Shown: in pieces, positions 39,446-52,642 of the stretch
How positions within the stretch are numbered: the first letter of the stretch is position 1
How the letters are laid out: every line of letters starts with the position of its first letter
Source: Marivivens aquimaris
Lineage (GTDB): Bacteria > Pseudomonadota > Alphaproteobacteria > Rhodobacterales > Rhodobacteraceae
Length of the DNA stretch: 64,000 nucleotides
Assembly: GCF_015220045.1 (NCBI RefSeq)
Contig: NZ_JADBGB010000001.1
Location: forward strand, 496,001 to 560,000
Reading direction: 5' to 3'
Translations under genes and position numbers: made by a program
The notes under the pieces: generated by a model
Seen by the model: only the letters and a program-made list of their open reading frames with translations
Database searches by the model: none
What the model was told of the DNA's origin: nothing

Positions 39446-39520
39446 TGGAGCGGGCGAGGCGATTCGAACGCCCGACCCTAACCTTGGCAAGGTTATGCTC
39501 TACCCCTGAGCTACGCCCGC
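39446..39520 (-). tRNA. tRNA-Gly (GCC), copy 3 in transcription order
   Basis: Acceptor GCGGGCG / CGCCCGC, discriminator T, encoded CCA. Anticodon stem-loop TAACC-TTGCCAA-GGTTA gives GCC; T-arm contains GTTCGAATC. Identical to the other two copies. Confidence 0.97.
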
Positions 39521-39556
39521 ACCTGAGCTTTGACCTTACGGTCCGGGGTCTGACAT

Positions 39557-39631
39557 TGGAGCGGGCGAGGCGATTCGAACGCCCGACCCTAACCTTGGCA
39601 AGGTTATGCTCTACCCCTGAGCTACGCCCGC
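39557..39631 (-). tRNA. tRNA-Gly (GCC), copy 2 in transcription order
   Basis: Same 75-base sequence as its neighbours with encoded CCA (39557-39559). It is 36 bp from copy 3 and 18 bp from copy 1. Confidence 0.97.
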
Positions 39632-39649
39632 ACCGTTGTCAGACCGAAA

Positions 39650-39724
39650 TGGAGCGGGCGAGGCGATTCGAACGCCCGACCCTAACCTTGGCAAGGTTAT
39701 GCTCTACCCCTGAGCTACGCCCGC
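39650..39724 (-). tRNA. tRNA-Gly (GCC), copy 1 in transcription order
   Basis: Same 75-base sequence with encoded CCA (39650-39652). It is closest to the promoter at 39742-39770 and so is the first tRNA of the tricistronic transcript. Confidence 0.97.
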
Positions 39725-49899: not shown

Positions 49900-49940
49900 C
49901 CGCGACCCGATTTCAAAAAAGATGTCCTGAAAATAGAAAA

Positions 49941-49973
49941 CGGCGACACCCGGGAGGAGGAGGGGTGTCGCCG
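49941..49973 (-). ncRNA. CcsR-type hairpin 9 (distal, terminator)
   Basis: Stem CGGCGACACCC (49941-49951) / GGGTGTCGCCG (49963-49973), 11 bp, no mismatch; loop 49952-49962. Followed on the minus strand by TTTTCTATTTTC. Confidence 0.9.
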
Positions 49974-49982
49974 CTCTATTCG

Positions 49983-50014
49983 GCGAATGCTCAGGGAGGA
50001 GGAAGAGCACCCGC
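49983..50014 (-). ncRNA. CcsR-type hairpin 8
   Basis: TGCTC (49988-49992) pairs with GAGCA (50005-50009); GCG/CGC extend it across a 2x2 internal loop. It is the weakest stem in the array. Loop 49993-50004. Confidence 0.8.
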
Positions 50015-50019
50015 TTTGG

Positions 50020-50053
50020 GAGGATCCGGCAGGGAGGAGGAGAGCCGGACCTC
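50020..50053 (-). ncRNA. CcsR-type hairpin 7
   Basis: GAGG plus TCCGGC (50020-50030, A50024 bulged) pair with GCCGGA plus CCTC (50044-50053), 10 bp; loop 50031-50043. Confidence 0.85.
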
Positions 50054-50057
50054 GGAT

Positions 50058-50092
50058 GCGAAGCGCTCAGGGAGGAGGAGAGAGCGGTTCGC
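50058..50092 (-). ncRNA. CcsR-type hairpin 6
   Basis: GCGAAGCGCTC (50058-50068) pairs with GAGCGGTTCGC (50082-50092) at 10 of 11 positions; loop 50069-50081. Confidence 0.85.
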
Positions 50093-50107
50093 AATTCTAT
50101 TTAGGGT

Positions 50108-50144
50108 GCGGTGACACTCAGGGAGGAGGAGCGAGTGTCACCGC
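50108..50144 (-). ncRNA. CcsR-type hairpin 5
   Basis: GCGGTGACACTC (50108-50119) pairs perfectly with GAGTGTCACCGC (50133-50144), 12 bp, the longest stem; loop 50120-50132. Confidence 0.9.
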
Positions 50145-50152
50145 CAGTTTCA

Positions 50153-50179
50153 CGACCCTAGGGAGGAGGAGAAGGGTCG
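50153..50179 (-). ncRNA. CcsR-type hairpin 4
   Basis: CGACCCT (50153-50159) pairs with AGGGTCG (50173-50179); GTTTC and GGAAC outside it can add pairs. Loop 50160-50172. Confidence 0.85.
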
Positions 50180-50198
50180 GAACCTTTTGTTTCGAAAG

Positions 50199-50232
50199 GC
50201 GGCAGCTCCAGGGAGGAGAAAGGAGCTGCCGC
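50199..50232 (-). ncRNA. CcsR-type hairpin 3
   Basis: GCGGCAGCTCC (50199-50209) pairs perfectly with GGAGCTGCCGC (50222-50232), 11 bp. The loop (50210-50221) is the only one that lacks the first C of the motif (UCUCCUCCC). Confidence 0.88.
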
Positions 50233-50239
50233 TTTTTTC

Positions 50240-50274
50240 ACGATCCTCCACAGGGAGGAGGAGGGGAGGATCGT
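50240..50274 (-). ncRNA. CcsR-type hairpin 2
   Basis: ACGATCCTCC (50240-50249) pairs perfectly with GGAGGATCGT (50265-50274), 10 bp; loop 50250-50264 has one additional CCU. Confidence 0.9.
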
Positions 50275-50277
50275 TAG

Positions 50278-50307
50278 CGGAACTTCAGGGAGGAGGAAGA
50301 AGTTCCG
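50278..50307 (-). ncRNA. CcsR-type hairpin 1 (proximal to DUF1127 gene)
   Basis: CGGAACTTC (50278-50286) pairs perfectly with GAAGTTCCG (50299-50307), 9 bp; loop 50287-50298. It begins 12 bases after the DUF1127 stop. Confidence 0.9.
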
Positions 50308-50319
50308 AAGTCTATTCTT

Positions 50320-50538
50320 TTAGTTCGCGCCGTAGGCGGCTTCGATAGCGACGCCCTTGATCATTGCGCGGGCGATGCCCAGGTCGTTCAGTTCGCGATC
50401 CGAGAGCTTTTCCAGCTCAACCATCGTAGCGCGGTACAGTTTGAACTTGGCAAAGCGGTCGGCCAAGGTGGCGCTCAGGTTCGAAACCGAACCGAAGAAG
50501 TTAAAGCCAGTGGCGCGTGCGTCGTTTGCGTATGCCAT
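50320..50538 (-). CDS. ccaF1: DUF1127 small basic protein, CcaF1-like
   Basis: A 72-residue protein. Residues about 30-70 are the DUF1127 domain (YRATMVELEKLSDRELNDLG, IARAMIKGVAIEAAYG), an arginine- and lysine-containing helical motif. In R. sphaeroides the DUF1127 protein CcaF1 is encoded directly upstream of CcsR1-4, is cotranscribed with them, binds RNA and affects their maturation. The same order here, with the hairpin array 12 bases behind the stop, supports the same role; the symbol is given on that basis. It is divergent from mrp. Confidence 0.88.
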   Translation of the reverse strand: MAYANDARATGFNFFGSVSNLSATLADRFAKFKLYRATMVELEKLSDRELNDLGIARAMIKGVAIEAAYGAN

Positions 50539-50600: not shown

Positions 50601-50631
50601 GCTTAGCGACTTGCGCTGTTGTTGAACTCAA
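50601..50631 (-). promoter_or_regulatory. Possible promoter of the DUF1127-hairpin transcript
   Basis: Minus-strand TTGAGT (50626-50631) and CTAAGC (50601-50606) are 19 bases apart (18 if GCTAAG is used). A heat-shock-type sigma factor drives the R. sphaeroides locus, and these boxes are loosely compatible with that, but the match is weak. Confidence 0.3.
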
Positions 50632-50819
50632 TTTGCGTTTTTTGCTGCGACTGCACAATTGGGACTTTGGTCAATGCCGCCATGCAGCGAGTGCATGGGA
50701 AAGCATGTCGCTTTACGCATAACTGTTGCATTGGGCGGGTAGGTGGACCGGTTTGTCTTGAATCTCGGGCATTTACGCGCTTGGTTGCGCAGGAAACAGG
50801 CAAACCGATGGAGGCCCTC

Positions 50820-52056: not shown

Positions 52057-52178
52057 ACTGCGGCGTGAATAAATACCTCAAAAACAAGAACATAAGCAGA
52101 ACATGGAGTGGGGTGAGGTGTGTCCATCATGCACCACAAAAAATTCTATGAACTTTCTGGAACCTACCACGCGCTGCG

Positions 52179-52187
52179 TTATCCACA
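52179..52187 (+). promoter_or_regulatory. Consensus DnaA box
   Basis: TTATCCACA, an exact match to the high-affinity DnaA box. Single copy in this gap, so a regulatory site is more likely than an origin. Confidence 0.5.
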
Positions 52188-52551
52188 GGGTGCTGCACTA
52201 AATATGGGGTGAAAATTGCCCAACCTGCCCATATGGGGCGTAACCCACTATTCCGTGATGTTGGCGTTGGCCCCGTGATCGGCCCGAACTATCCCACTGA
52301 GTTCCATGTGGTTCCAATTTATGGTTGCTCGGTTCCATCACATTTGGCACAAACAAGACATCGGAAGTGAGTTGGTAACGACTAAGCGGGACAAAGACCC
52401 AAAAGGGCGCAGATCCCAGCGGTAAAACAATAAAACCAGAGCAGGTTTCATACAGGCAGCCACTCACTTCCAAACAAGAAGATCCGGCGCGCGAGCGAGC
52501 AGACATCCCCCCAGGTGGCGCGCGTTGTCGGACATCCCGCGAGGGACGATG

Positions 52552-52588
52552 ACGGCGGATCGGGCTTGGCAGTAGCTCGATCCGCCGT
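52552..52588 (+). terminator. Strong hairpin in the mraZ leader
   Basis: ACGGCGGATCG (52552-52562) pairs perfectly with CGATCCGCCGT (52578-52588) around a 15-base loop and is followed by TCGTCTTTC. It lies 55 bases before mraZ and could be a terminator or attenuator for transcripts entering the division cluster. Confidence 0.5.
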
Positions 52589-52642
52589 TCGTCTTTCAGG
52601 GCCCGAAAGGGCAGGCAGGTAAGCAAAAGAGGCCGCAGGCAA

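Follow-up and report, generated by a model that had tools for sequence, protein, structure and literature searches.

The systems closest to the locus considered here are the CIN1 loci, in which DUF1127 genes are found with CcsR-like RNAs, and the small RNAs of the cuckoo or alpha-r14 family. In R. sphaeroides the CIN1 locus is described as having an RpoHI/RpoHII promoter and as being processed by RNase E, and CcaF1, an RNA-binding protein, is described as taking part with RNase E in the processing of the ccaF1-CcsR transcript (PMC10253847). CcsR maturation is also reported to be hindered by more CcaF1 (PMC8307010), and set against the processing role this leaves the sign of the CcaF1 effect ambiguous. 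The published RpoHI/HII promoter of rsp_0557, a DUF1127 gene of R. sphaeroides, has TTG at -35 and TAT at -12 (PMC10673084).

Alpha-r14 RNAs are described as three hairpins with an identical CCUCCUCCC and variable stems (PMC10746234), and cuckoo motifs as sets of two to four hairpins (PMC4504443). SmelA075 is given three hairpins and SmelA099 four, while R. sphaeroides RSs0680a is given two stem-loops with the motif in each (PMC3927594). For NfeR1, the reported mode of action is mRNA silencing at the translation initiation region, with three motifs that are redundant (PMC7143759).

A related array is found in Marivivens aquimaris, within a 64,000-nucleotide stretch of DNA that is called the window throughout. 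The minus strand from 50307 to 49938 carries nine hairpins, H1 through H9 (Table 1), each of which leaves a CTCCTCCC core unpaired; the 5' bases of these cores lie at 50295, 50260, 50218, 50168, 50128, 50077, 50039, 50001 and 49959. The loop sequence is CCUCCUCCC in eight of the nine and UCUCCUCCC in H3 or, taken as a 9-mer, CCTCCTCCC in eight and TCTCCTCCC in H3 (50218). The H3 9-mer is one base off the other eight and is absent from the other six genomes of the genus; CCTCCTCCC occupies H3 in the nearest of these, G150, where DUF1127 is 97% identical. Stems had been put at 7-12 bp in the sequence-only reading that this analysis followed up, a range that becomes 9-14 base pairs once all enclosing pairs are counted, with predicted energies of -12.5 to -26.1 kcal/mol. 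The most stable hairpins are H3, H5 and H9 (-23.2 to -26.1 kcal/mol; the rest, -12.5 to -17.4), and the stems of these three share the 5' start GCGGYRRC. The stems, at first called unrelated, are indeed divergent yet paired, but the common opening of H3, H5 and H9 means that they are not wholly unrelated.

Table 1. Positions in the window of the hairpin array, its upstream gene and the associated sequence elements
Feature	Position	Strand	Remark
TTGTGC, candidate -35 (TTG), RpoH-type promoter	50653..50658	-	conserved in 77/80 loci
PhaR-like palindrome CTGCATGGCGG	50677..50687	-	one mismatch to CTGCNNNGCAG
CGCAAATT at -10 place	50630..50637	-	weak in window; CCCATGTT in Cereibacter johrii
DUF1127 gene, 72 aa, CcaF1-like	50320..50538	-	Pfam PF06568 E = 7.2e-9
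Rfam RF02344 ar14 match spanning H1-H3	50194..50313	-	72.9 bits
Rfam RF02344 ar14 match spanning H7-H9	49936..50059	-	68.8 bits
Hairpin H1	50278..50307	-	predicted unit A
Hairpin H2	50240..50274	-	predicted unit A
Hairpin H3, GC-rich stem, loop variant UCUCCUCCC	50199..50232	-	predicted end of unit A
Hairpin H4	50146..50185	-	predicted unit B
Hairpin H5, GC-rich stem	50108..50144	-	predicted end of unit B
Hairpin H6	50057..50093	-	predicted unit C
Hairpin H7	50020..50053	-	predicted unit C
Hairpin H8	49983..50014	-	predicted unit C
Hairpin H9, GC-rich stem, same loop core, then TTTTCTATTTT	49930..49976	-	intrinsic-terminator-like

Chance and low complexity were ruled out by shuffling as the source of the array. 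The minus strand of the window holds 10 copies of the 8-mer core, nine of them in the array, and 20 dinucleotide shuffles of the whole window strand gave a mean of 1.45 and a maximum of 5. For the 410-nt array the predicted folding energy is -178.2 kcal/mol, to be compared with a shuffle mean of -108.8 (sd 5.6, n = 60; z = -12.5). When the 4.05 Mb genome was searched for exact core pairs spaced 14-44 nt, the array locus alone was returned, as eight overlapping pairs, and the backward-pattern control returned none. Cores, folds and shuffles thus bear out the initial description of nine minus-strand hairpins with a near-invariant loop. The span first assigned to the feature, 49927-50538, does hold the array but takes in the DUF1127 gene as well. 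A plus-strand reading frame over the array (49987-50277) was taken as an artefact of the repeated motif.

Elsewhere in the window, positions 52100-52640 form the stretch before mraZ, where the UpsM sRNA of R. sphaeroides (mraZ 5' UTR) is reported to sit (PMC7866481), and the minus strand at 39449-39724 carries three tandem tRNA genes with identical Rfam scores.

Both RF02344 matches in the window pass the gathering threshold of 58.8 bits; a search of the whole genome returned three matches, the third of which (44.3 bits) lies below it. Directly upstream of the array, on the same strand, is a DUF1127 gene, as its PF06568 match confirms. Its protein is mildly basic (pI 8.1; nine K+R, eight D+E), with Marivivens donghaensis HF1 as its best titled match (97% over 72 aa). 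H9 together with TTTTCTATTTT looks like a Rho-independent terminator at the 3' end of the array. The order of DUF1127 gene, hairpins and U-rich tail, and the kinship with ccaF1-CcsR, had been read correctly. The sequence that marks every loop of the cuckoo family, CCUCCUCCC, is found in eight of nine loops in the window and 60 of 61 in the genus. Judged by its sequence, the array is a member of the cuckoo/alpha-r14 family (RF02344), in a CIN1-type DUF1127 arrangement.

With ccaF1-CcsR1-4 (CIN1) the window shares the DUF1127 gene, the downstream anti-Shine-Dalgarno (aSD) hairpins and the terminator, and with two Cereibacter CIN1-type relatives it shares a divergent mrp upstream and the TTGTGC element. 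This comparison rests on the sequences of the Cereibacter relatives, C. johrii and C. ovatus, which we take to be close to R. sphaeroides. The hairpins of C. johrii form four pairs with 31-39 nt between pairs, whereas those of the window, where gaps are short, are predicted to fall into sets of 3, 2 and 4; the loop of the terminator-like hairpin is two mismatches off the motif in C. johrii, whereas that of the window carries it. The alpha-r14/cuckoo RNAs NfeR1, SmelA075 and SmelA099 resemble the window array in having CCUCCUCCC in each loop and variable stems, but they are described with two to four hairpins per RNA rather than nine, and NfeR1 with a sigma-70 promoter (PMC4504443, PMC3927594, PMC10746234, PMC7143759). 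Alpha-r8/MmgR of Sinorhizobium meliloti likewise combines a PhaR site with an aSD motif rich in C (UUUCCUCCCU), but is described as three stem-loops with the motif in the first loop only and no tandem array (PMC7143759). All told, the window locus is a well conserved further example of a described locus type, and its discovery value is modest.

The constancy of the loops can be followed within the genus, for which seven genomes, the window's own included, were compared. A matching DUF1127 gene is found in all seven; six have nine hairpins in the same order and one, G153, has seven. The 9-mer is CCTCCTCCC in 60 of the 61 hairpins and TCTCCTCCC in one, and every hairpin has at least eight enclosing pairs. 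In a MAFFT alignment of the six nine-hairpin genomes, G153 being left out, linkers differ most per site (0.44), followed by the upstream region (0.35), the coding sequence (0.27), stems (0.23), loop positions outside the core (0.09) and the core itself (0.04). The figure for the core includes misaligned H1 sites, and its constancy is partly built in, the hairpins having been located by the exact 8-mer. The 5' arms show a mean identity of 59% to those of the window and yet retain pairing. When each hairpin was slid by up to two bases either side for best fit, a procedure that favours pairing, the stem pairs of the window and five genomes comprised 298 that were the same, 117 changed on both sides, 35 changed on one side and 29 broken; the corresponding pair cells of the unfitted alignment numbered 336, 51, 49 and 52. 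It had been proposed from the sequence that the loop is under selection as RNA, and the question of whether loops vary as freely as stems in relatives was put to these alignments; the outcome was the opposite, and the proposal is supported.

A wider survey covered 80 titled loci, which are the best 80 of 236 DUF1127 protein matches and a non-random sample. These contain 656 exact hairpins and 39 candidates with one or two mismatches, among which the first motif base is changed most (24 of 52 mismatches). A GCGGYR-like 5' arm is present in 113 of the 203 strong hairpins, in 50 of the 175 of middling stability and in 24 of the 276 weak ones, so stem sequence is not entirely unconstrained. At 75 of the 80 loci mrp lies divergent and upstream of the DUF1127 gene; no mrp was detected at the other five (L107, L122, L134, L154 and L158). 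Record titles do not follow the genus consistently, as the loci titled Paradonghicola geojensis (L093) and uncultured Rhodobacteraceae (L091) look the same as those of Marivivens genus members.

Loops follow the gene at all 80 loci, with the first required within 250 nt of the gene and each next one within 160. Their number ranges from 3 to 26: 3 (2 loci), 4 (9), 5 (3), 6 (13), 7 (7), 8 (17), 9 (11), 10 (4), 11 (4), 13 (3), 14 (4), 15 (1), 17 (1) and 26 (1). L095, titled Marivivens sp. Ww150, has 11, and the C. johrii and C. ovatus loci have eight hairpins each, two of the entries (L139 and L140) being the same stretch of one C. johrii strain on two contigs. Given this range, the idea that nine is an exceptional count was rejected. 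RSs0680a is presumably CcsR1. With its two stem-loops (PMC3927594) and the eight hairpins of the Cereibacter loci in mind, the earlier statement that nine is more than twice CcsR1-4 turns out to have compared hairpins with RNAs. In our reading, the nine of the window amount to eight hairpins and a terminator in which the motif is present as well.

The largest array encountered, in Alexandriicola marinus (L145 / L063, G146), has 26 aSD hairpins in succession downstream of its DUF1127 gene and is largely made up of repeats of a three-hairpin unit of ~140 nt. Across the family, a CTCCTCCC pair was found in 126 of 150 genomes, the window's own included, by a scan for the exact pattern in which some genomes also gave control matches and single matches may be chance. 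In a class-wide sample all four genomes of the same family matched (again including the window's own), as did 22 of the 237 other genomes, most of them with a single match; more than one was counted in G158 (5), G256 (3), G223 (2) and G227 (7, control 13). A phage origin was rejected, as none of 38 viral-contig DUF1127 relatives has clustered loops. Copy number is an evolving trait of the cuckoo array family, at 3-26 in the surveyed loci.

Array and gene do not always occur together. Among the matches listed, 31 array regions were picked independently of DUF1127 and searched for DUF1127 frames with an HMM of the genus proteins; a frame lies upstream of the first loop in 24 and not in seven, one of the surveyed arrays (L065) having it downstream of the loops. 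In L060, L061 and L069 (6, 10 and 8 loops) no recognisable DUF1127 frame was found, and these three of the seven keep a TTGTGC element, placed 84-191 nt ahead of loop one. No DUF1127 match was found at the two-hairpin loci L086 and L087. A TTGTGC-type element is present at 24 of 32 array loci. As such loci show, the array can stand without DUF1127, and neither partner is constant. The other DUF1127 genes of the genus (L049-L058) have no CTCCTCCC within 1200 nt downstream.

Hairpin stability and spacing give some indication of how the array is divided. Using the 656 hairpins of the 80 loci, two of which have fewer than five pairs, the more stable hairpin was found to lie upstream at 83 of 101 gaps of at least 20 nt and at 155 of 468 gaps shorter than 15 nt. 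The hairpin before a gap and the one after it have mean energies of -16.9 and -20.8 for gaps under 8 nt (n = 409), -23.7 and -16.3 for 8-14 nt (n = 59), -23.8 and -14.4 for 15-24 nt (n = 10), and -21.4 and -17.2 for at least 25 nt (n = 96), and the strong-before-long-gap sign is seen in 41 of the 52 loci with long gaps. Gaps after stable hairpins would mark the predicted ends of separate RNAs. In the orthologue nearest the window, L090, the two widest gaps (13 and 14 nt) come after H3 and after H5 and divide the array into units of 3, 2 and 4. The stem order in G153 (weak, weak, strong, weak, weak, weak, strong) is what loss of the H4-H5 unit would leave. Taken together, stability and spacing point to about three RNAs (3+2+4 hairpins), with a GC-rich hairpin at the end of each; cutting into nine RNAs, which the sequence-only reading had left open, is disfavoured by this grouping. 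Across the loci as a whole, A/U-richness is not a feature of the long linkers (AT 0.40; short linkers, 0.63), so an RNase E-like linker signature is limited to the window's own linkers, where it is visible by eye.

The best explanation, which we consider likely, is that this is a CIN1-type locus whose RpoH-like transcript is cut into about three anti-SD RNAs that repress many mRNAs under stress. The DUF1127 gene, the same-strand cuckoo/alpha-r14 array and the terminator-like last hairpin can be read from the sequence, and the remaining steps are inferred. A single transcript from an RpoH-like promoter would span the gene and the array, and cleavage of this precursor in the linkers after H3 and H5 would yield about three RNAs of 3, 2 and 4 hairpins, with a GC-rich hairpin shielding the 3' end of each. 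Each loop would present CCUCCUCCC, complementary to strong Shine-Dalgarno sequences, such that under stress the RNAs could hold down translation of a wide range of mRNAs, and repetition of the loop would increase dose and redundancy. The loop resembles the 3' end of 16S rRNA. DUF1127 would probably affect processing, though the arrangement can do without it. In the genome, GGAGGAG-N3-12-ATG occurs at 97 sites, compared with 23 for the backward pattern, eight of the 97 being one repeated 15-mer, GGAGGAGCGCCTATG, perhaps part of a repeated element; the sites show that matching SD sequences exist but do not mark them as targets, and the excess may only reflect general SD usage.

Several other readings have to be weighed, and the likelihoods attached to them overlap, as they are not mutually exclusive. 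That the array stays one polyvalent RNA, acting as a sponge that takes up SD-like sequences, Hfq or further RNAs, is partly compatible with the best explanation and, taken on its own, unlikely. Compact arrays with short gaps do exist (the window, Limimaricola, and Alexandriicola with 26), and an RNA sponge of Caulobacter is reported to pair with the related C-rich motif UUUCCUCCCU of alpha-r8 sRNAs (PMC12559287), but the strong hairpins before long gaps and weak ones after them point to separate ends. A decoy that titrates SD sequences is possible; the mode reported for NfeR1 is silencing of mRNAs where translation starts (PMC7143759).

It is quite unlikely that the loop serves mainly as a protein-binding site, for instance for DUF1127 itself, with base pairing secondary. 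CcaF1 is published as an RNA-binding protein (PMC10253847), and a fixed loop on free stems would suit such a site. The DUF1127 protein of the window is only mildly basic (pI 8.1), however, arrays without a recognisable DUF1127 frame exist, and the motif is complementary to SD sequences.

A role in cis, in which the hairpins stabilise the DUF1127 mRNA or regulate its translation, seems very unlikely. Hairpins do lie behind the gene at every one of the 80 loci, though these were chosen via the DUF1127 protein; against this, L060, L061 and L069 share the promoter element in the absence of a recognisable frame, L086 and L087 likewise lack one, the DUF1127 leader AAAGGATGAGAGACGAAA has no GGAGG, and a cis role would leave the loops free to vary. 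A mobile or expanding repeat with no function of its own, as the copied three-hairpin unit behind the 26 loops of Alexandriicola marinus might suggest, can practically be dismissed, given a single locus in the genome (exact pair search), synteny of that locus in relatives, and loops that are retained while stems covary.

The preferred explanation of a processed anti-SD transcript invokes an RpoH-like promoter, our reading of the sequence before DUF1127 and a weak one in the window. The TTGTGC element is extended to TTGTGC-N4-GCAG in 74 of the 77 loci that bear it. The -10 candidate, 21 bases on from the first TTGTGC base, reads CCCATGTT in C. johrii; the window has CGCAAATT there. Heat-shock-sigma control of the array is plausible from the conserved TTG element.

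A second conserved element lies further upstream. The published PhaR site of R. sphaeroides is CTGCNNNGCAG (PMC12542648), and this sequence occurs within 260 nt upstream at 49 of 79 loci, where 100 shuffles gave a mean of 0.7 and a maximum of 3 and the region from -700 to -440 gave 2 of 79. The form CTGCNNNGCRG occurs at 61 of the 79 (shuffles, mean 1.2, maximum 4; far region, 7). L134 was dropped from these counts for want of upstream sequence, and the loci are related by descent, so the counts overstate independence. Both elements are present at 62 loci, and the distance from the start of the palindrome to TTGTGC is 28-29 nt at 51 of these and 20-21 nt at the remaining 11. The five loci with no detected mrp have such a palindrome too, so it belongs to the DUF1127 gene and not to mrp. 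A point against the PhaR reading is that Cereibacter, the closest to the species in which the PhaR site was defined, has CCGCATGGCAG instead.

The palindrome is not confined to DUF1127 loci. Some two-hairpin cuckoo loci lie away from the main array: L086 and L087, which have no DUF1127 match, and L035, probably a copy of L087 in one and the same genome. In all three, C(C/T)GCNNNGCAG precedes the first loop core by exactly 71 nt. The 15-mer TGCACCGCAGCATTA of L087 recurs in CAATTGTGCACCGCAGCATTA, the mmgR site of S. meliloti, which is listed among the sites that PhaR binds efficiently. The TTGTGC-N4-GCAG block, however, spans one base more than the mmgR site, which weighs against the PhaR reading. 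Palindromes at these three loci are more independent evidence than those of the DUF1127 loci. The looser pattern C(C/T)GCNNNGC(A/G)G, used with no shuffle control, is found within 520 nt at 28 of 32 array loci, and among the other DUF1127 genes of the genus (L049-L058) CTGCNNNGCRG occurs within 300 nt in seven of ten, exactly in five, a count with no control of its own.

The genome of the window has its own phaR (PF07879, 98.9 bits) and a phaP (PF09361, 27.3 bits against a cut-off of 24.9) that is preceded by three exact palindromes. The naming of PhaR targets by motif alone was ruled out, the motif being common in this genome (138 sites, compared with 103 for the backward pattern), and the case for PhaR rests instead on position and conservation. 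No PhaR link to DUF1127, CcsR or arrays of this kind was found in the literature searched, which comprised titles and abstract openings and few subscription papers.

The conserved upstream palindrome suggests a possible link of the array to carbon-storage control. A fuller version of this idea, which we put forward tentatively and hold to be somewhat doubtful, is that cuckoo arrays of Rhodobacteraceae are directly controlled by PhaR, the PHB-granule sensor, on an RpoH-type promoter, so that carbon storage and stress would together release them. The strength of the response would be set by gain and loss of two- to four-hairpin cassettes (3 to 26 loops), and other DUF1127 genes would fall in the same regulon. 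If this is true, the PhaR-like site before arrays with and without a DUF1127 frame would tie carbon storage to a broad anti-SD stress response.
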